A stretch of 64,000 bases of DNA from Syncephalis fuscata (Eukaryota > Zoopagomycota > Zoopagomycetes > Zoopagales > Piptocephalidaceae): the NCBI GenBank assembly GCA_025786725.1, contig JAHLTZ010000047.1, positions 80,260-144,259 on the forward strand, given 5' to 3'. Within the stretch, counting starts at the first letter, position 1. Each line of letters starts with the position of its first letter. The position numbers were made by a program, and so were the translations under genes. The notes under the pieces are model-generated. The model saw only the letters and a list, made by a program, of their open reading frames with translations. It ran no database searches and was not told where the DNA came from. Positions 2,026 through 42,816 of this stretch are shown here, piece by piece.

Positions 2026-5000
2026 TTATACTAATTTAAGGAGATGCGGTGTAATAGTCTCACCGACTGCACAACTGGATGCCAATGTGGCAATGGCAGC
2101 ATGTTGAGCAATATTAACAAGTCGATCCATGTTATCGGAAGAGCCGTGAACGGTCAATCCAGCCACAAGTGCACCACAAAACTATCACCGGCACCTGTAA
2201 CATTAACAATACTGTCGGGCTTAAGAGCCGGATAATATTTAAGTGTTGGAGCAGATTCATGAGAAGACAACGTGTTGCTGGCACATAGTACACCATGATT
2301 GCCTAACTTGACCATTACCGTGGGTATTCTCCTACTTAGTCTTAATGCGTTAAGAGCGGTGGTATGCCATAGTTCCGGAATGGATTCAAGTACTAAAAAC
2401 GAAATAGTATCAAATAATAGTAAATAAACTGATGATGATTACTTACATAAAGTATGATATTTATCAATACTAATTGGTTTTGTAAACCAGTCTTTATTGT
2501 TAAGCACCTGTGTCAATGCGTCTAATTCATAGTGATTGGGTGTTATGTAATGAATACCGCCTGACTCGAGAATAGCGGGATCTTGTAAGATGCGAAGTGA
2601 TTTTGGAATCGATGTCGGTTCAAACAAAGCTATATTATTGTATTAGTATATGGATAGATGGTAAAGCCTATTATATCTTATACTTACTAGGTATACCGGT
2701 AAGCGCACATATATCGGAAATTGCCCGTATACAGGAAACAGGTAAATTGCCGTCAAAACATATAAATGCCGGCTTCACTTCCTGTATCGCTCGGACAATA
2801 TGGCTTGGTTGTAATTGGTTGAAAATATCCATATTGGCCACTGCAACATATAACTGTCCATCAGCCTCGTGAATAGCATTGTAAACAGCCGTGTGGGTTG
2901 TTGGATCATCGCTAGAAAGTCTTTGTATTTGGCTACAGGACTATATTAAATAGAGTAATCAATGACGGCCATTATTATTACTATTATTATTACTATTACT
3001 ATATGGCTGCTATTTCATTTACCAAATTAATACGTGTTAGTTCTTCGTTAATCCATTCACCGTCTGCATCATTACTTGTAATAGATACTAATACAGTATC
3101 GATACCGCATTTGTGAGCAACTCGAGCTATATTACATCCCACACCGCCTAATGTACGCTGTAATTGGCCCGGATACGAGGATCTATTTAATGGATGATGG
3201 CCTACATCTGATGCTACCGTACACGTAATATCAACGGCACAACCGCCCACCACCATCTAAATAGATAGATAGATAGATAGATAGTGGTCAATGAATAGTA
3301 ACTGACTCCAATAGTTATATAACCAACCAGTCTTTTAGCACTATGATTATTTATGGAACTACTGCTACCACTACTATTGTTACTACTTGAATATGATTCA
3401 GTAGGCTGATTATGGGTAACAAAAGTCTTTTGATCATTAATAAATAGAAATAACACAAAAACAATATAATATAAGTAAGTCTTCATTATCAATTGGCCAT
3501 AAGTATTAAACCTTTGGATGTGCTTGGTTCTGGCTATTTTGACGCAATAAAGCAAATTCCCGCGCTATTTGACTACCAATAACTGCATTATTTTTTATCA
3601 AAGCAATGTCTAACATTACAAATTAGTTTACATGGTTTTTATCAGCATTTCAGTGACCTACTGGCTTCCAATGATTTGCCTAAAGTCCGTTGGTTAACAC
3701 GGTCGAGTAGGAATGGTGTTATATCTTTTCCGATAATATTTTGTTCACTAAGTAGCTATTATTAATCATAGAACGGTGGTTATGTTATATTATTATAGTT
3801 ACACTGATTCGGCCAATGCTTGCTTGATAGCCTTTTGAATTTCTTGACCATCAGCGGCGTATTGCTCAGGAATTGGTACGGCAATTACTTGGCCTCCTTC
3901 TAATTGAAGTCGATGCGCCACATCTTTGATGCCATTGTTTATATTTGTAGTGCATTAAAATAAACCAAAACTTACCCAGCAATGATGCACATTCCTTGAC
4001 AGTGTCTAGCCGCATTGGTGACTAGATAGCGAGATAGTTATTATAACTAGTATATAGGATATTTGGCTCATTAATTAAATGTTACCTTAAATCCACTATG
4101 AGGTGTGAAAAATGCAGGGAATTCATCAGAACCATAGGTGGCCACCGTAACGCCTTGCGTTTCCTATTATTTGTATTATTTAGCCAATGAGTCGTTATAT
4201 GTTAGTGTTATACCAAATATTCTAATGTCTTTTCCAGGTCAAGAATCGATTTGGCTCCACCACATACGACGGCTACAGGTGTACGACCTAGTTCCGTTAA
4301 ATCCGCGCTAATATCCATTGCTGTATTTCAACATTATTAGTAGCTGTTCTATCCCGCTGACCATACTTACTTTGCTCGGCACCGTAGTGAACACCACCAA
4401 TGCCTCCCGTAACAAATACAGGAATGCCCGCTCGATGTGCAATCACCATGGTGGACGCTATAGTAGTAGCTGCAGGAACACCCTTTAATTGTATATTTAA
4501 TGCTATAGACGCTTTAATGTGTTACAATGAGTTTGTAAACTACCTTTGCTACTACGTAGGCAATATCTCGACGAGAAGTCTTAGTTGCCTTGTTACCAAT
4601 CTTGGCCAGTGTATTTAATTCATCATTGGTAAGTCCTATTAGTTATTAGTAAGTATGGTTTACACCAATTCAATAAACAGTATACGTACCAACACGTATT
4701 TTGCCATCAAGGATAGCAATGGTAGCTGGTACACAGCCATGTTCACGCACAATTGACTCGACAGCTTGGGCAGTGGTTAAATTTTGTGGATAAGGCATGC
4801 CTGTGGACAGCTATAGAGTAGATTATCATGAATGGATGTGGTACACGTACCATGACTTATAATTGTCGATTCAAGAGCCACGACCGGCTTTCCTGCCTTC
4901 AATGCAGCAGTTACTTCGGCTGACGGCTGCAAAATTGTTTGCATTGCGTCACGCGCTAATAACCGTCGCTGCGCTATGTGAGAAGAACACAGCAGTGCGC

Positions 5001-5064
5001 GAGGTGCCAGAGAAGTTCGGGCGACGCCATAAGCCATTGACGAAAATACGCGTTGGTAATTCAT
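2026..5064 (-). CDS. Pseudouridine-5'-phosphate glycosidase / PfkB-family kinase fusion
   Basis: Bifunctional pseudouridine catabolism enzyme. A PsuG (indigoidine-synthase-A-like) domain cleaves pseudouridine 5'-phosphate to uracil and ribose 5-phosphate, and a PfkB-family domain is expected to phosphorylate pseudouridine. The first exon (5064 to about 4851) begins with an Arg/Ala-rich, presequence-like N-terminus (Arg at 5, 16, 22 and 33), so a mitochondrial location is plausible, and then reads [12 protein letters not shown], typical of PsuG. Small exons down to about 3830 continue PsuG (AIVREHG-like and [12 protein letters not shown] segments). A Ser/Asn-rich linker lies around 3320-3420. 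The PfkB part runs from about 3256 with [31 protein letters not shown] and the ATP-site GAGD motif in [14 protein letters not shown]. It stops at TAA 2026-2028. At least eight introns of about 50-90 nt interrupt it. Confidence 0.85.
3261..3288. repeat. ATAG microsatellite in an intron
   Basis: Perfect ATAG tandem inside the intron just before the PfkB domain exon of the fusion gene. Confidence 0.8.
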
Positions 5065-6039
5065 TGTGGGAAATTGCTGGCGTATGTAAATTATGTATAA
5101 CGCTTAAAGAAAAAGAACACTACGCCCTTATTTTTATTTTTACCACTCAGTGTAACAAGCATGTTGGTTAAAACCTGAATGGATTGGATAGGCTAAATAT
5201 AACTTTATGTACTACGTAAAAACACCATTAATTGTGGCGTGTTAAGCGTGTTAAAGAAATGAATTACGTATTAAAAGCTACTGTACTTTGACTCCCACAT
5301 CTGTCCCAAAGCACAATTTGTTCCAATCAGAGTTATGCCATTATTATACGCAACATAGTTATATTACTTTCTATTAAAATATTATTAATAGACTGATTTA
5401 AATAAACAATGTAGCATACTATTTGATTACTTTGAAACATTTGAGGTTGATTATTATTGTTATTGGCTATGTGTAGAAAGATTGATTGAATATTAATAAA
5501 AGCCATTGATCGCGATTCCATATCGTTCCTCATTACTTCTGTTGCCTGTTTGTCATACTGCACATCAAATTGTTATGTATCTATTTCTTTTCTATCTTGT
5601 TTCTGTTTACTTGAACCACATTGTATATTATAATAATTATATTTAATAATCGCAATTATTTTATTATTTTTATACTTGTAGACCATTTCAACAAAAATAT
5701 CTAACAATTCAGTGTAATAATGACGATGTATTTTACGGAAATCAATTTAAAACAGGTATCACAATATTATTGATTGGCTTGTATGGTTTTACTTTTATTC
5801 ATAATTTAAGTTTGTACTGCTTTCATCTGAATGCTATACTATTATATCATTAGCTAATTTAATATTGAAGGAAATGATGCTATAATAATATAGATTGTCC
5901 ATAAACATTACAATGTATGGTCAAAGTAGTTCATGTTACATTAGCAAATGTACAAAGCGTATTGTAATAAAATATTTGATTATTATTATTATTTATGATA
6001 TGCACGAAATAAATGCTATAAGTATTGTTAGTCTAATTT
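5065..6039. other. AT-rich intergenic stretch, nothing recognised
   Basis: About 1 kb of AT-rich sequence upstream of the fusion gene and downstream of the kinase-like gene. Only short random open frames occur. No RNA gene or repeat was recognised. Confidence 0.5.
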
Positions 6040-8029: not shown

Positions 8030-11000
8030 ATGCAAGCGAGTTTCTTCTCGTCGACGTTTAGCGACAATCTAAGCGGCTCGTCGTCCACACGCAGTCCCGA
8101 CTTTGTTAAACGTCGGCTTGACCATTACTATCGCGCCATCAATGCGATTGTTCTTTCACGCCAGAATGCCTGCAGCGGCTTGTTACCGGCCTCGGTAGCT
8201 GTTACAACGCACGGCGATTATCGCGATGCCTGGGTACGTGACAATGTCTACTCGATCCTTTGTGTATTCGGTCTGGCTCTGGCCTATCGTCGATTGGACG
8301 ACGATGACGGACGTGCCTACGAGCTCGAGCATTCGTGCGTTAAACTAATGCGCGGTCTACTTACAAGTATGATGCGACAAGCAAGCAAAGTGGAGCAATT
8401 TAAGCAAACACAAGCACTGGAACACTCGCTCCACGCCAAATACAGTACGACAACGGGCGAGCCAGTTGTAGGCGACTTTGAATGGGGTCATCTTCAGTTG
8501 GATGCGACTAGTATATTTTTATTAATGCTTGCGCAAATGACGGCAGCTGGCATGCAAATCATCTATACGAGTGATGAAGTTGACTTTGTTCAAAATCTTG
8601 TGTTCTATATTGAACGTGCTTATCGGTAAGTAAATGGACAAATATTATTTATTTTGTATCTGTAAGTGATGTTAATTATTGTATCTAGCACGCCAGATTA
8701 CGGTATTTGGGAACGTGGTAATAAAATCAATCATGGACAGCCTGAATTAAATTCGTCATCCATTGGCATGGTTGTGGCGGCTTTACAAGCAATTAATGGT
8801 ATTAATCTTTTTGGTCCTCGAGGTGGTCCATCAACGGTGAGGTATTAATATAAACTAAATGTTTATTTTACTTATTAAATGAATAGGTCATTTACGCACT
8901 ACCCGATGAAATTACCCGCAACACCACCGTATTGCACTCTGCACTTCCACGCGAATCAAACTCCAAAGAAATTGACGCTGCTCTTCTTTCGATTATCAGC
9001 TATCCTGCTTTTGCCGTCTCTGATAAAGCATTGGTGGAGCGCACACGAAATGATATTATTAAAAAATTGGGCGGTAAATATGGCTGTAAACGCTTTTTAC
9101 GCGATGGCCATCAAACGACCGTTGAAGGTAAATAGAGGGTATATTGGTTTATAGTACTGTGCAGTTAACCATTTATTGCCACCTTAATAGACACTTCCCG
9201 TCTGCATTATGAACCACACGAGCTTGAAGTGTTTAAAGACATTGAATCAGAATGGCCTTTGTTTTTTACTTATCTTATATTGGATGGTATATTTACAGGA
9301 AATGATGTTCAAGCAGAAGAGTTTGCAGAGGCGCTAGAGCCGCTAATCATTTCATCAGGCCAATTAAACCAGTTGGGATTGAAGCTGGAAGGTATTAACG
9401 TTGATACACAGCGTGTTCCTAGCGATGCCACCGGTTCTACGCCGCCTATTACACCACGAGCACCGCGTGATGATATTCCATTGATTCCTGAACTGTATTT
9501 TGTGGCTAGAGATCGGGTTGATGCCGAAAAGGCCAATCCTCATTCACAGCCACGTATGCCAAATGATAACGTGCCATTGGTATGGGCCAATTCCTTATAT
9601 TTCCTTAGCCAATTGCTACGTGAAAATCTACTATCGCCAGCGGAGGTTGATCCATTGGGACGTCGTTTACTTCCCAAGTTCAATAAAGCATCAAATACAG
9701 TGGTGCAAATTGTGCTATTGTCGGAGGATGTGCAGCTACAGTCGAAGCTAGCTGTCTATGGCCTCGAGACGCAGACCGTTGATGAAGTACAGCCAGTTAC
9801 TATTGGATCACACAAGGCACTGCTTGAAGTCTATAGCACCTTGGGCATGAATCGTAAGCTAGGCTTATCTGGTCGACCTCGACGGTACGTGCAATAATTG
9901 CCTTTACGGCTAAATATTAATATAAAACATATATACTAATTATAATGGGTAATCACATTTGTAAATAGACCGGTTGGTTGTCTAAGTACATCTAGACTTT
10001 ATCGCGTACAAGGCCAATTATACGCATTTACACCGCATTTCCTTGATCGAGAAACCTTCTATATGACAAGCGACAACGAGTACTTAATGGCACTATTTGA
10101 ACAAGAACTAGCGTTTATCCGCGACAATTGGACTTGTTCTGGCCGTCCAACACTAGTTGTTATGTTAACACATGCCATGATGGACAGTATTACAGGTGGC
10201 CGGCCGTCGACTCATTCGGCAAATTCAAACCAGACCGCCATGAATCTATCACGTCCATCTATTAGGTATCGTGGCCGCAATATACTTAACTTTATGATGA
10301 ATCTACGAGCCGGGCAATGTAATGGTGTTCGAGTCCGTTTGGGTCGACTATCGGAAATGGTCCGTACCAGCTATATTGAAAGCCTCGACTTTCTAGTCAA
10401 CAAGAATGATGTTGATTGGTATGGTATTCTACGAGGCAGTGGCCGATTTGGACACTCTCCACGAGATATTCTATCAGCATCGGCTCGTAAATCTCGACAA
10501 CATCGCCGTTCATCAACACGTAGCCGATCTCGATCTCGATTGGCATCACCGGTACTGAAACCGGAAAAGTATCTTAAAGACGAAACGAAATCCATTGGCA
10601 TAGTGGGGACAATAGTGGCATCGCCACCACCATCTGCTACATTACCTTCACTCTCGCTGGATATGTCGCTTTTATCCAACCATCATACACCAATCGATAA
10701 AGAAGGAAAGGAGATAGAAAGTAAGGCGAGCATAAATACTAGTAGTAGTAACGCTGCTATACCAGAACCATTGTCATTGGAACGAACGGGTACCGATCTA
10801 TCTGAAGCATTATCTGATGATACAGTATTGGATATTGATACACTATCTCTTACCTTGGGCGACCCAAGCAGTGTACCACAAGCCATTGAATATCTAGTCA
10901 AATCAGCCAACTATACGATCAGATTGGTAAGAACTAATCGCTTAATTACTTAATATTTACAGTTATAATACCAATGCTAATTAAATATTAATTAGATTTA

Positions 11001-12983: not shown

Positions 12984-13491
12984 CTCATGGCTATAAAAGC
13001 CAAAGCTTTACGTTGAGCAGTTTGGTAAATAAAATAAACAATAGCAAAATGCTTTAATATTACTAATCATTAGTTGACAATCTATTCAGCTATCCATTAA
13101 ATATAACATTTAGCTTGAGTGACTTAGTAAAAGAAATGTATTTATTGACAATAAAACTGCCTAGACTAATCGATAGCATCGATAGTAATACATTTAGTAC
13201 TATGGCGATGCTATAGCCCAAAAGTATAGACTTGGTGGAATGATTATCAAAAGGCGGCTTAGTGTCAGTAAAACATAAATTGAACGCTGGATTTAATCTG
13301 TAGTTGCTAGCTTGATACTTGCGTTTATTTTCCTACTTTAAATAAATTGGATAATGCAGTCAATATTAGAAACTTATGGACGACAATTGATAAGTTATTC
13401 GAATAACAGTACTTACCTTCTGTTATAATTATTTATTAGTTCCAATATTAATAAATGAACTTTATTAACACTGCCATACTCTTACTTATTA
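12984..13491. other. 3' flank of the phosphorylase kinase gene and tail of the micro-exon locus
   Basis: Starts with the 3' end of the plus-strand gene (AATAAA elements near 13028). On the minus strand it contains a further micro-exon-like AAG (13419-13417), between a CAG acceptor and a GTAAGT donor, and a possible terminal exon starting at 13332 after TAG. These continue the regular spacing of the locus upstream and may be 3' UTR or an alternative C-terminus. Confidence 0.45.
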
Positions 13492-15735
13492 TCATCCATC
13501 AAAGCCTATAGAGATAAGTCAATTGAAGATCATGAAGATAATTAGTAATAATAGTAGTTTGGAGTAGCTATTTAGCACTTACTGACTAGTTATGTTAACA
13601 ATTAGGCAGGTAAATAAATATAATTAATTTTGTATATTAATCATTTAAAGTAAACTTACTAGCTAATGATATTATTTTGACAGATATATACATAAAAATA
13701 TCACAATTAGTGTCTTTCTAATGCGTATTCAAATTTATTACTTACTAGCTGTTGTTATTGATTTAAAAATAGTATTCATCAAAATATTAGATAGCTGCAT
13801 ATTACTCTGATTGCCTTTAATTTCCACTTACAATCTAATGATAGATCGTGTAAATACAGTGTACAGTAATACCGTTAATATGTGTTTGTTTCTTTAGTTA
13901 TGAATTCAAACATACCTTTTACCGATTTCAATAAACATGCCATACAATCAATAAATGATTTAAATTAGCAAAATATTATAATGCATAATAAACATGTCGA
14001 ATAGTATAACGTGGCCAACTATACATTCTAGTCACCAACTTACCATTTGCTAACAGGTTAAAAAGTCAATTTTAGTAAACAATATAATGCAAAGGATTTT
14101 AAACGCAATCTGTGTCTGCACTTACTTATCACTAAAGTCATAATTTATACAATAAAATATTAGCTATCGCAAATAGTCTAAATACAATCTAATTCGACCC
14201 ACCGCCTATTAACATTAGTTAAAAACTATTACGTTAGCAATATGATACAATGCATATTTTCAAGTAGTACAGAAATTGCACAAGGTATAATCTTACATCC
14301 AACTGTGGTATTAATAAACCAGATTAAATATAATAAAGTATTAATTATTATCAATTAGCTGAACATATGCTTTAGCTTACGAAATTCTATTAGCATTATT
14401 TTGTTAAATGCAGCATCAAATCGAAATATATTAGTAATCTAGGATTTATAGTGATCTATAAACTTACTCATATCTATTGAAATTGGATTCAGAATACATT
14501 ATTAATGTTTTATTATGCTAATGATAATAGAAAATTACCGTCAACTATTTTAATAAACAAATGATTTAGATAATATAATGGTTAGTTTATATTCTAAATT
14601 AAAAATATTATGATTACTTACGAACTTCTATTAGTTTTAATAATGCAGCATAGTTTGTTAAACCTATTGGAAACTTAAGTTTTATTCAACTTACTATCTA
14701 TAAATACGGTTAATCAATCAAATTAAAATTGAGTTAATACGCTAATGACAATTTACAACTAAAACTCCAAACCTTAAGCTTACTTTTTTCTAATAATTGG
14801 TATTTATCAGTTATGTATAATAGCAGTAAGCGGCAGTCTCTTTTTAATTGCTTAAATCATAACCTACCAGACGCTATTTTTACCATATAGCAAACATTGA
14901 TAGTCACAGCAATCGGTAGTTAGTAGTTGAATACTTATAAATTATTGTAATTTACCCGGCACTATGCGTGTTTTTAGTACAATTAAAGCGCCATGTAATT
15001 AGTTATTATCCAATTAACAAAGTTGTAACTTACAAGATTCTATCATCATTTAGGCATTGATATTGGTATGTAAAACAATGTTAGTTATGGTATAAACACT
15101 GATACCATAAATTACCGGAAACTATCAATGATAATAATTTATAAATACGCAGTTAGAATCTTCAGATAATTGTTACATATTACAACTTACTTAATGCTAT
15201 TAATATCAATTTGGAAAATATAGAGCATCAATATAAAGCTAGTTTATGAATTAATCATTTAGATTCTAACTTACCAGAACCTATTTCAGCAATTTGATGA
15301 ATATTTAATATAAAATTTAACATTAACTTACGTAGAGCTATCGATAGAAATTGAGAATGTTAGATAATAGCTAAATATAAACATTTATAATGTAACATAC
15401 ATGAACCTAATAAACAAGTTAGCGAACTAAACAACAATAAAGCATAAATAAATGTTAAACGTCCGATTACAACTTACATTTTGCTGTATAGACGTGTATC
15501 AATTAAATATCAATAAACTAGTATATTAGATGTTATACAGCTGCTTAACACTGTGTCTTACGATCATCTATTTGTGTTATTTTATTATAAATAATAGCAA
15601 GAAGTTAATAGTTTACTAAAGATAATTTTTGTTGCAACATACCGCGGCGAACAATCAATGGTTGGCGTTAACGTCAATAACACTTGTTAGACACGCAACA
15701 ACGGTCGTGCAAAGAATCGCCGTAGTAAGTCTCAT
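13492..15735 (-). CDS. Micro-exon gene: secreted peptide built from 3- and 6-nt exons
   Basis: Exon 1 (15735-15643) starts with a clear signal peptide, MRLTTAILCTTVVACLTS then VIDVNA (24 residues), and ends at a GTATGT donor. It is followed by exons of 6 or 3 nt, each directly between an AG acceptor and a GTAAGT-like donor: 15567-15562, 15483-15478, 15406-15401, 15337-15332, 15280-15275, 15196-15191, 15121-15116, 15039-15034, 14961-14956, 14873-14868, 14789-14784, 14697-14695, 14627-14622, 14544-14539, 14473-14468, 14386-14381, 14302-14297, 14205-14203, 14131-14126, 14049-14044, 13834-13832, 13748-13746, 13662-13660 and 13585-13583. A 20-nt exon (13505-13486) contains TGA 13494-13492. Introns are 51-91 nt except one of 209. 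Joined, the micro-exons are open in one frame only (phase 2-3-1), giving about 53-55 mature residues with two Cys. That frame meets the signal-peptide frame only if one base is missing near 15664-15666. Function is unknown; a secreted effector is inferred. Confidence 0.75.
13923..13928 (-). other. Possible additional 6-nt exon with a TTG acceptor
   Basis: The one oversized intron of the micro-exon locus (14043-13835) contains, at the expected spacing, a 6-nt segment followed by GTAAAA. Its acceptor reads TTG instead of TAG. Including it keeps the frame open and splits the gap into about 115 and 88 nt. It could be a mutated, skipped exon or use a rare GT-TG intron. Confidence 0.35.
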
Positions 15736-39777: not shown

Positions 39778-41619
39778 TTAACCTTTCACTGTTCCATAAT
39801 ACGGAATAAAAACAGCACGGTCTGATGGTGGTTTATTGAATCTTGGATTAGGATCGAGTACAATATATCCGGAATATGACCATATCTCATTCTTTTGTAT
39901 ACTCGTGGGCGTACTAATCCGTACCAGAATCTCACCTTTTTGCTTTGGTTGTAGGCTAATAGATCCTGGAAAGGAAACGGCTGCGATTAGAGATTGTTTT
40001 GATAACATATCACTAAGATACGATACTCTTGGAGTCGCTTCAGCTGGAATATGTGAAATTTTATATAAGAGTGCAGTGTCGGAAAAAGATGAAATTTTGA
40101 TCTGTACATTCGCTGTATTGGCATAAGTACCTTCTATATTAATTGAAGATGGTTCAACGTGAATGCGTTCATCATCTATTAGTTTGCTAAGATTAATCAT
40201 GCCAGCACCTTGATGTTGTACAGGAATGTAGGAATCTACATTATTCTCTTTGACTGGAATTGCGTTGTTTTGTAATATAGTTTTGACATATCCAATGTCA
40301 ATCAAACTATTTTGATTGCGTTCAACTATCAGCGCAGTTGCACCGGCAACATATGCAACAGCAGCTGATATATCACTGAAATAAGGCTTGTCTCGTTTGT
40401 CATAAATGGTAGTAGTGTAAATTTTGTGACTTGGCGCTAAAATGTCAGGATAGAAAGGTGATATGAATGGTTGCTTTTGCGGTCCAGCTGTGTCGACAGT
40501 AATGCTACTATTTTCAATGTAGCCATACTTTTCTGCAAAAACATATTTATATGCAAGCTTATTTTCATAGCCTTTTTTAATAAATAAAGCATCTTTTTCA
40601 CTAATTTGAAATAAAGGTATATTACATCTTGTTTTTGCTCTAAAATCATCGCTTATAATGACAAGTGCAGCCATTCCGATCGCTTTAGCACGCTTTCGCA
40701 TGGCCAAAGTTTTTGTTGTTTTATACCAAATAAGTGCAATGTCATCTTTTTTAAAACCATCTAAATGATTTTTTAATTTGCGTGAATACTTGCTAGGAAT
40801 AACATCCACTTCTTTGCCAAAGTTATATTTCATATTTGAACATCTAGACGTAAATTCAATACGACGTCCCGTTGTTTTTTCTTCAAACCAATGCGATAAA
40901 CGATATTCTTGTTTAAAGCCACCAACGCTTAAGACAGGAAGACCTTGATATAAAAAGTAATTTGGATTCATAAAATTATTGGCTGATGCTGCAACAATCA
41001 TAATCACGCCATGTTTTGCAGCATCTTCTATTGTTTCTCTCAGCCGATTGCCATATTCATCTACAATGGCAATTTCCGGCAATACAATGATTTTCATTTG
41101 ATCATCAGTGATTGCAGTTATTAGAGCTTGCAACACCAATAAAGTTGAAGTCGGACCTTTACAGCCAAATACACGATAGGTGCCAAGTGTCGCCTCGGGC
41201 GCAACTCCAGTAAAATAAATGGTTTTTGCAACGGCAATTCCAGCTAGACTCATACCGCGATTGTTGCAATAAGGTATATTTTCGTAGTTTTTTTCATTAT
41301 CTACATATTTATGGTAGTGCTTATGATTCTTTTTAAATACATGAGCTTCGATATTTATTCCGCTATCAATGATTCCAAGCTTTACGCCCCTTCCTTTAAA
41401 GCCCATATCGTGAAGTGTTTTAACGCCGGTGGGTACATAGTAAGGTGTTGCATAAACTGGGTTATTAGTGATTTTGGAGCCAATATAGGGGCGGTTGTAA
41501 TTAGGTTTCGTGTAAAAGTCATCTTTATATGATTTGGTACTGTTTACGGCAAAATGTTGTGTTGAACAAAATAGCAGCAGTATAGAAGCTGCTAACTGCT
41601 GTGTCCGTCTTAATATCAT
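39778..41619 (-). CDS. Secreted subtilase-like protein lacking the catalytic His
   Basis: Intronless S8-family protein. The ATG at 41619 gives a signal peptide (MILRRTQQLAASILLLFCST); an upstream in-frame ATG at 41688 would bury it. The Asp motif is present (GVKLGIIDSGINIEAHVF). At the His site, where active subtilases read HGTHVAG, this protein reads NNRGMSLAGIAVA, so the catalytic His is replaced. VAASANN marks the oxyanion Asn region. A PA-type insertion follows (about residues 250-390). At the Ser site GTSMAxP is replaced by DISAAVAYVAGATALI, keeping a Ser but losing Gly, Thr and Pro. The C-terminal beta domain is Fn3-like (VQIKISSFSDTALLYKI). Overall order fits Vpr-like or pyrolysin-like subtilases. 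It is probably secreted, and probably inactive as a classical protease unless another residue substitutes. Confidence 0.8.
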   Translation of the reverse strand: MILRRTQQLAASILLLFCSTQHFAVNSTKSYKDDFYTKPNYNRPYIGSKITNNPVYATPYYVPTGVKTLHDMGFKGRGVKLGIIDSGINIEAHVFKKNHKHYHKYVDNEKNYENIPYCNNRGMSLAGIAVAKTIYFTGVAPEATLGTYRVFGCKGPTSTLLVLQALITAITDDQMKIIVLPEIAIVDEYGNRLRETIEDAAKHGVIMIVAASANNFMNPNYFLYQGLPVLSVGGFKQEYRLSHWFEEKTTGRRIEFTSRCSNMKYNFGKEVDVIPSKYSRKLKNHLDGFKKDDIALIWYKTTKTLAMRKRAKAIGMAALVIISDDFRAKTRCNIPLFQISEKDALFIKKGYENKLAYKYVFAEKYGYIENSSITVDTAGPQKQPFISPFYPDILAPSHKIYTTTIYDKRDKPYFSDISAAVAYVAGATALIVERNQNSLIDIGYVKTILQNNAIPVKENNVDSYIPVQHQGAGMINLSKLIDDERIHVEPSSINIEGTYANTANVQIKISSFSDTALLYKISHIPAEATPRVSYLSDMLSKQSLIAAVSFPGSISLQPKQKGEILVRISTPTSIQKNEIWSYSGYIVLDPNPRFNKPPSDRAVFIPYYGTVKG

Positions 41620-42667
41620 CGTACAACTAATTTTTGTATTGAAGAAGATGTATAATTTAATTATATAAAAAGTGCCGATAAAAAGCAAATAAAAACGAGA
41701 CGTATATAAGATAGGAATATTTGAATAAGTACCTGGTAGTTACTTTTAGACTCAAATGATATGGTTCTATAAAAGAATATTGGCATGTTTTAAATACCAT
41801 TTTAGATTGTCAAACAGGAAACTTAGAACGTGTGTTTAAAATAGTACTAATTGTAGAACGATAGCTCTATATCTATATATATTACTAGTAATTTGATTTT
41901 TATTTAAATTAGTGATTTTAATAATTACCATGCAATATTATATCTTCTTGATTAACTACTACAATTGCATATAACTTCTTATGGTGCTAACTGGTCATGA
42001 TATTACACATCAGCATACATAGTTTGACAGCTGTTTTATAGGTTGAATAGCTTAAAACTAAAATATATTTGGCTATACATAAAAATGGCACGCAACAATT
42101 TTTGTGTTTGTTAAATAGATCCAAGCATAATAAAACATAATAATATAGATTAAGCAAATGGTTTCAACAATTTCAAATGCTATTATAATAAAATTAATGC
42201 ATGTTTCAATGTATAAACATAAATAACAATTTTATTCAGTCAATCTCTAACAATATACTAGGCTTATCAAACAAATACAGACTCTATCAAATAAAACAAC
42301 TAAATGTGACTATGTTTATAGAAAGACCGAGTAAATTGATCATTAACAAGTAAAGGATTATCAAAACATTATATAACAGCATTATCAATTAAACAAAATG
42401 TGTAAAAAACATTTAAACTAACAAGATGAATTTATTACTGCAAGTTTGCATATTTAAATAAAAGCATCTGGTTACAAGCTTGTTGGTAGAATCATAATAC
42501 CATTGCTTAAAAGCTAAAAACTAAAGCATTGGCCAGAACTTGATAAATAAATAGACTGAACAGCGTAGTTGTCAAATGGTGCTGCTTTCTATCGAATATA
42601 TTTAAACTGTCCTGGACTAGTGGCCTAATTGCGCTACCAATGCCAATGCCGGAAATAGCGGTTGTTC
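41620..42667. other. Intergenic region with the right inverted repeat arm
   Basis: AT-rich noncoding sequence upstream of the subtilase-like gene. It contains the inverted repeat arm 42237-42292. No gene is recognised. Confidence 0.5.
42237..42292 (-). repeat. Inverted repeat arm flanking the subtilase-like gene (right)
   Basis: Reverse complement of 39342-39397 with a few mismatches. The arms are about 2.9 kb apart and the protease-like gene lies between them. Confidence 0.6.
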
Positions 42668-42816
42668 TTACTCGCATCCACCGCAGTTAAGCTCAAGTTT
42701 CCAGCAAAGGTCACATATAGGAGTATGCTTTAGTAGAGTTGGCCTAGCATCTACCATAGATATATTGGCCACAAAACCATGGCGATGGTGCAAACAACGG
42801 CAATAGAAAGCTTCAT
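42668..42816 (-). CDS. Small secreted Cys-rich peptide (about 49 residues)
   Basis: The ATG at 42816 begins MKLSIAVVCTIAMVL, the first half of a signal peptide. In the adjacent frame the sequence continues ANISMVDA, giving a normal signal peptide end, then a mature region with CDLCWKL and CGGCE, and TAA at 42668-42670. One base appears to be missing near 42771. The mature part of about 25 residues carries four Cys as CxxC pairs. No family is recognised. It lies about 1.2 kb from the secreted subtilase-like gene on the same strand. Taken as a candidate secreted effector-like peptide; the frame break makes it uncertain. Confidence 0.45.

Follow-up and report, generated by a model that had tools for sequence, protein, structure and literature searches.

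A micro-exon array in the window

The sequence analysed here, which we call the window, is a stretch of 64,000 nucleotides (nt) of the Syncephalis fuscata genome (contig JAHLTZ010000047.1, positions 80,260 to 144,259); members of the genus are described as obligate mycoparasites (PMC6784888). An initial annotation placed on its minus strand, between positions 13492 and 15735, a gene in which a signal-peptide exon is followed by a regular series of acceptor, micro-exon and donor. The series is present and slightly longer than described: behind the signal-peptide exon we count 25 units of the form [C/T]AG-N3/N6-donor, of which 18 have exons of 6 nt and 7 have exons of 3 nt (18 and at least six had been reported), and all 25 carry the TAG or CAG acceptor that had been noted. 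A chain finder was used to score linked acceptor–exon–donor units in the window and in shuffled (approximately dinucleotide-preserving), reversed and complemented sequence. The best chain, corresponding to the first run of the array, links 20 units and scores 142.5, against a maximum of 39.0 in 500 shuffles and scores of at most 20.5 in the reversed and complemented controls; the second run of the array scores 50.0, and the next-best chain elsewhere in the window 28.5. Introns span the reported 51–91 nt, with two exceptions (209 nt and 163 nt) where a single one had been given. The core of the annotation, tiny symmetric exons behind a signal-peptide exon and separated by short introns in a fungus, stands and is not a product of chance.

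The micro-exons are open in the 2-3-1 phase and contain stops in the other two, as had been claimed; for a single locus this openness is weak and not significant, because 1,584 of 5,000 reorderings of the window micro-exons are also stop-free. The open phase reads DDPKCSSLRSALISESLPASEKNKVLDDMKFLGCVITNDSTIKGK (DDPKCSSLRS...FLGCVITNDSTIKGK) up to a stop and contains two cysteines. Its candidate last exon comes to a stop after two codons, a pattern similar to that of the sister genes described below (Table 1). The 20-nt candidate exon in the 163-nt gap is probably skipped or decayed, because its use would shift the frame. We rejected an 82-codon open stretch after position 13334 (...STKSILLGYSIAIVLNVLLSMLSISLG...) as the C-terminal exon, since it differs in phase from the open micro-exon phase, which runs into a stop within two codons.

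Table 1. Features of the micro-exon array and of an intronless relative in the window
Feature	Position	Strand	Details
Exon 1, signal peptide MRLTTAILCTTVVACLTSVIDVNAN...	15643..15735	-	donor GTATGT 15642-15637; TGA 15657-15655 in signal-peptide frame
First run, 20 units (18 x 6 nt, 2 x 3 nt)	14044..15567	-	ATGATC (15567) to CAAATG (14049); introns 51-91 nt
AG/GTATGT junction in 209-nt gap	13915..13916	-	putative 0-nt exon (recursive splice site)
Second run, four 3-nt exons	13583..13834	-	ATT 13834, CTA 13748, CTA 13662, TCA 13585
Candidate 20-nt exon in 163-nt gap	13486..13505	-	TAG-20 nt-GTAAGA; read by eye
25th unit	13417..13419	-	CAG-AAG-GTAAGT; beyond the span first annotated
Candidate last exon	13325..13332	-	acceptor TAG 13335-13333; intron 84 nt; phase 1, G/GA AAA TAA
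Intronless family member	42668..42816	-	MKLSIAVVCTIAMVL... and ...SMVDARPTLLKHTPICDLCWKLELNCGGCE up to a stop; halves out of register

Sister arrays and intronless relatives

A genome scan had been named beforehand as a possible refutation of the annotation. Across the whole S. fuscata assembly (28.95 Mb, 299 contigs), the pattern GTAAGT-N40-70-AG-N3-6-GTAAGT matched 1,839 times (860 + 979) and the reversed pattern, used as the control, 67 times (28 + 39), which favours the array reading. Because nine loci with one full family array have 11–26 matches each, the genome may hold on the order of 100 arrays; this order-of-magnitude estimate depends on the share of arrays as weak in the scan as those of the window (5 matches), L017 (8) and L016 (1). 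In a search for the signal-peptide exon, which is predicted by eye to encode a signal peptide, all 150 scored candidates matched (of 315 candidates), some of them with long contiguous open frames.

With a decoder that favours 3- and 6-nt exons, we read out 19 arrays that follow the family signal peptide, at loci picked for arrays or for that signal peptide. Most of their first exons end in ...VRR plus one base, and the arrays comprise 6 to 42 units each. Among 454 distinct units, the exon is 3 nt long in 427 and 6 nt in 20, the remainder being of 15 nt (two), 4 nt (two), 2 nt (two) and 0 nt (one); the donor is GTAAGT in 393 and the acceptor TAG in 434, and the median intron is 78 nt. The regularity is also seen independently of the decoder. 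When array donors are defined as GTAAGT with another GTAAGT 50–100 nt upstream, the nearest upstream YAG lies at 3 nt (372) or 6 nt (15) in 387 of 404, compared with 121 of the 291 remaining GTAAGT sites in these stretches, a control that includes array donors preceded by a different donor.

Joined in order, these exons behave as coding sequence. In 15 non-redundant arrays (the near-copies L009, L012, L014 and L035 were omitted, and L024 and L040 were truncated at their odd unit), phase 1, which is set by exon 1, contains no stops, phase 2 contains one and phase 0 contains 32; reordering the micro-exons within genes gives a mean of 21.9 phase-1 stops and a minimum of 9 (2,000 trials). Ten of the 15 arrays decode from start to stop, and eight of these ten have exactly six cysteines. 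Reordering these eight gives a mean of 26.1 and a maximum of 39 cysteines, compared with the 48 in the actual order, and leaves at most 3 genes with six (3,000 trials). The joined peptides of L013 and L034, for example, read DAIEDCRRGRAACFKKCQSTWRDSASLEYRSCSMDCASYWRIC and GSYEECKACMVVCKDRGELSKEQCQGKCYNQC, respectively.

The same kind of signal peptide is found in 16 contiguous relatives that we fetched (L029–L032 and L042–L053), which have no introns (for example, GDRCTDCIDACTATKKNAVVCLNQCTNQKKCPA). Eleven of the 16 have exactly six cysteines past the signal peptide; L029 has 4, L043 has 7 and L051–L053 have 8. In an alignment of nine contiguous and seven joined peptides, five scaffold cysteines are invariant and the sixth is present in at least 90%. 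Array and intronless genes share not only the signal peptide but also the 3′ flank: the last exon of 7 of the 12 arrays checked opens with the intronless 3′-flank motif TAATC/T..GG, its TAA in the joined frame, and the other five have 1–8 codons to a stop, which chance can explain. The joined peptide of L027 (40 units) is 59% identical to that of the intronless L032 over residues 1–69, mainly through the signal peptide. In our view, the sharing of scaffold, start and end across two independent ways of writing a peptide is the strongest evidence for micro-exon splicing that the sequences offer.

Few members of the family are present in protein databases. A profile search of 5.8 billion proteins, limited to candidates 0.55 to 1.75 times the query length, returned 14 proteins, all named S. 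fuscata. Two of the deposited S. fuscata models (P0029 and P0030) begin with the family signal peptide and appear to be misannotated, as they continue into translated intron sequence. None of five peptides had a Pfam family above the cut-off (one weak match, E = 0.051, fell below it), and comparison of PDB sequences with profile A1 gave no matches at E up to 1. The single-sequence predicted fold of P0023, an intronless member, is helical, with a mean pLDDT of 66, too weak for a fold search.

We consider it very probable that these loci constitute a large S. fuscata family of secreted, mostly six-cysteine mini-proteins, in which an estimated 100 members are written one codon per exon and spliced. 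Exon 1 (signal peptide MKLS...VDA.P..VRR, ending VRR/G in phase 1) would be joined to 24–42 exons in the complete six-cysteine arrays, with internal exons nearly all of 3 nt, some of 6 nt and rarely of other lengths, and a last exon that brings the stop. The introns, of about 78 nt and of the form GTAAGT...TAG, are copies of one family and short enough that they would be recognized across the intron (intron definition). The sequence motif suggests probable cleavage of the joined peptide after RR by a Kex2-like protease, and the spacing C-x2-C-x3-C-x(n)-C-x3-C-x(n)-C, in which the distances vary, points to a fold held by disulfides. From the lifestyle of the fungus and the variability of the peptides we would guess at a role against or towards fungal hosts or competitors. 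The annotated claim of a secreted peptide is retained for the sister genes, and its fate in the window copy is taken up below.

The arrays could in principle be minisatellites, that is, tandem repeats of about 81 bp in which AG-NNN-GTAAGT occurs by coincidence and no exon-by-exon splicing takes place. Introns within an array are indeed about 75% identical and their period is regular, but variability peaks in the three-letter columns that separate the near-invariant sites, and the ordered triplets are stop-free in the phase of exon 1 and mostly yield the six-cysteine scaffold of the intronless sisters; the window array, moreover, bears the same signals without repeat similarity. We regard this explanation as very improbable. 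Constraint on the splice sites is also apparent in three near-copy pairs (L013/L014, L010/L035 and L011/L012), in which differences fall on 2 of 792 splice-site positions (nine per intron) and on 114 of 5,988 positions in intron bodies (P = 1.1 × 10−4, Fisher's test), about 7 times less at the splice sites, and exons differ at 9 of 288 positions, which is not significantly different from the intron bodies (P = 0.18). The decoder demands units that resemble splice sites, a possible bias, yet, the extra unit of L014 aside, none of the units in these pairs was lost. L009 is a broken copy, and two further comparisons that involve it, each with 3 differences in 227 splice-site positions, were left unpooled.

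The initial annotation had further proposed that one gene gives many peptides by the combinatorial omission of symmetric micro-exons. Such skipping would keep the frame, because 450 of 454 units are multiples of three. The scaffold, however, needs its cysteine-bearing units, and the sites are uniformly strong (GTAAGT in 393 and TAG in 434 of the 454 units), with no visible division into weak and strong exons. Complete sister arrays regain the six-cysteine scaffold when every unit is joined, which favours inclusion over skipping. We therefore think combinatorial skipping unlikely as the source of diversity, which shows itself instead in the units that copies of a gene have gained or lost; residues outside the scaffold may be skipped.

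Several observations weigh against the proposal of a spliced six-cysteine family. The arrays in the cysteine test, eight in number, were picked for completeness once decoding was done, and one of them, L020, lacks GT at its first donor position. The scaffold is missing in L011 and L012 (no cysteines) and in L041 (6 units, two cysteines); L024, L040 and L009 contain 2- or 4-nt units; an insert interrupts L009, L015 and L037; L036 runs into unrelated sequence; and L021 and L033, which are outside the 19 decoded arrays, end at an insert after one unit. The match between L027 and L032 lies mainly in the signal peptide, the mature parts sharing 11 residues (six cysteines). None of the 14 database proteins is a near match to a joined array, and a DNA search for a contiguous copy of the joined exons of L010 gave no matches, an empty answer that is uninformative. 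The window copy does not have the six-cysteine scaffold (two cysteines only in its open phase), its openness alone is not significant, and its introns have no detectable similarity to one another (0.62 versus a baseline of 0.62).

The window copy and the origin of the arrays

The window copy is probably a diverged, old member of the S. fuscata family. By eye, its first exon is similar to the family signal peptide MKLSIAVVCTIVVALVAATTIVDA.. and has kept VRR/G, in another frame: the codons beside the donor fit the family ...VRR/G only in the phase-1 frame, and the signal-peptide frame runs into a TGA upstream of the donor (Table 1). The signal-peptide frame of exon 1 does not lead into the open micro-exon phase, and the window copy as sequenced therefore does not encode the secreted peptide claimed for it. 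Searches for a near paralog of the array (DNA) and with its signal peptide (protein) each found only the window copy itself, a loose prefilter having passed one candidate in each case. The 25 units are intact while intron similarity is at background, which suggests long constraint with either a recent break or an assembly error. That this copy alone is a long-dead pseudogene, its regularity a residue, is a rather doubtful alternative. It would account for the exon 1 that is out of register, the 20-nt candidate unit, the 0-nt junction and the presence of only two cysteines, but acceptor, donor and 3n length are kept in 25 units despite the faded introns, and a long-dead array should have lost its sites and 3n lengths.

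The introns of the sister arrays form one family, with identities of 0.75 within genes and 0.74 between genes against a shuffled baseline of 0.66. With the first 6-nt exon, located ahead of the first cysteine, as the reference point, position-matched introns of ten genes are more alike than introns at other positions at 10 of 10 offsets with first introns omitted, and at 11 of 11 with first introns included; counting from the end of the array reveals no clear excess, 1 of 7 positions showing one. Because position-matched introns are more alike across ten genes, the arrays probably descend from a shared array-bearing ancestor.

One possible origin is intron invasion, in which an introner-like element was inserted repeatedly, codon by codon, into intronless six-cysteine genes. 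The single intron family, as similar between genes as within them, speaks for such a process, and the 6-nt exon AGGAAT of L034 corresponds to 3 + 3 nt around an intron in L040, and a 15-nt exon persists in L011/L012. Random insertion, on the other hand, does not predict a phase that is nearly always 1, and with position-matched introns more alike at the offsets counted from the first-cysteine exon the arrays look inherited, not separately invaded. We give this origin a serious hearing but less than even weight.

The other origin that we considered, tandem amplification of an intron-plus-codon unit followed by simultaneous loss of all introns through cDNA in the intronless copies, comes close to an even chance. 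Near-copies differ by whole units: L014 has one additional unit (GCC) at its end compared with L013, and hence one additional residue (the predicted coding length as far as the last micro-exon is 226 nt in L014 and 223 nt in L013), and the comparison of L009 (26 units up to its insert) with L035 and L010 (34 each) shows gaps of 67–325 bases. The likeness of position-matched introns likewise suggests an ancestral array. Intronless and array copies interleave in the tree (35 rows, 14 of them filling under half of the columns) with 8 changes at bootstrap values of 7–9, but branches with good support require just one of these. Introns that lie side by side are scarcely more similar than those far apart, and adjacent units do not share a codon significantly more often than expected in any of 5 arrays singly (11 versus 5.5 expected overall); we thus rejected simple local duplication as the sole source of the arrays. 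Nor, with the limit stated above for the search with the joined exons of L010, was an intronless near-copy of an array gene found.

Every intron-plus-codon unit is symmetric, so unequal recombination between similar introns, or loss of a splice site, would add or remove single residues in frame and could give rise to a fast-changing peptide family. We lean, by a little, towards regarding the intron–codon unit as a mutational cassette that works through intron recombination, altering the length of the peptide and the spacing of its loops by whole residues, and the intronless twins as genomic imprints of spliced messages; this would be a generator of diversity at the level of the gene unlike any known micro-exon gene. 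Instead of a unit, an AG/GT junction is present at unit 2 of L027 and at 13916/13915 of the window. Loss of an acceptor may leave a 0-nt exon where a codon exon had been, so that the peptide is shortened by one residue with the frame intact.

Known systems and further loci

Schistosome micro-exon genes (MEGs) have symmetric exons and a leading signal-peptide exon. The sister arrays share this layout, with symmetric small internal exons behind a signal-peptide exon, and in both cases many small exons encode secreted, variable proteins of parasites and are hard to annotate automatically. MEG exons are reported to measure 6–81 bp (3–81 bp in the abstract of the same paper), mostly 15 bp, and MEG introns 0.1–5 kb (PMC10526429); in the arrays, by contrast, 427 of 454 units are of 3 nt and the median intron is 78 nt. 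The S. fuscata introns also differ in being homologous to one another, and intronless twins exist.

Aphid bicycle genes resemble the arrays in that they form a large, divergent family of putative effectors whose internal exons are numerous, unusually small and almost all of one phase, and bicycle proteins have a cysteine motif. The arrays have the same placement of exons, their 3n units starting at codon position 2 after an exon 1 that ends in phase 1; this shared start is convergence and not proof of kinship. Bicycle genes are described as having about 17 exons on average, with internal exons mostly of phase 2 (PMC9168663), and their proteins as having saposin-like folds (PMC13041983), unlike the arrays with one codon per exon and mostly a six-cysteine scaffold.

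Introners insert into many genes across a genome (PMC9860276, PMC4457414), and the main text of the first of these studies does not mention Syncephalis. Like introner-like elements, the arrays contain many similar introns of one family at many positions, but theirs are packed at 3-nt spacing, in phase 1 and in one gene family. Splicing of ultra-small exons is documented for a 1-nt exon in Arabidopsis APC11 (PMC4674806) and a 3-bp exon in Drosophila hth (PMC7392893). These are single cases, whereas the arrays have 24–42 such exons in a row that would encode the whole mature protein. By title and the start of the abstract, we found no paper in the open-licence literature that describes micro-exon genes of this kind in fungi or Syncephalis, and neither PMC6784888 nor PMC10386755 uses the word exon or intron in its main text.

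If the arrays are spliced as predicted, one transcript needs 25–43 consecutive accurate splicing events around 3-nt exons. Exons of 3 nt would leave no room for exon definition or exonic enhancers, and the arrays would therefore serve as a natural experiment on pure intron definition and on the lower limit of exon size. The presence of intronless and array-coded versions in one genome would allow a direct comparison of the costs and benefits of introns. The arrays also expose a family of predicted secreted peptides with few members (14) in the protein databases searched despite signal-peptide matches in all 150 scored candidates, and indicate a route by which peptides could evolve residue by residue without frameshifts.

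Some loci depart from the family pattern. On the minus strand of L027, an ATG at 8684 opens a second, different signal peptide, MKISVATICTLITVFLAVGATIIEA..., after which come exons of 15, 6, 3 and 12 nt; this gene is a cysteine-rich relative with lower intron density. L017 carries a 26-unit array on the minus strand (reverse-strand units 3863-5837) with hydrophobic joined frames and one 2-nt unit, and in the 600 nt upstream of it no ATG opens a frame of 25 codons; the array is decayed or belongs to another family. A related insert (GAGCTTGTG... or AAAGCTTGTG...) lies within micro-introns, at L009:4997-5423 and after a donor in L015, L021, L033 and L037. ARAGORN found no tRNA genes in L009. The L009 insert is flanked by the direct repeat AGTAATATTGTATATTA, and the insert looks like a short mobile element.

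The window also contains an intronless family member (Table 1), which has a family-like 3′ flank and is apparently a decaying contiguous paralog. It lies upstream of a gene for a secreted subtilase (39781-41739, minus strand), for which the matches listed include nine S. fuscata relatives; eight S. fuscata proteins match it at 52–65% identity.
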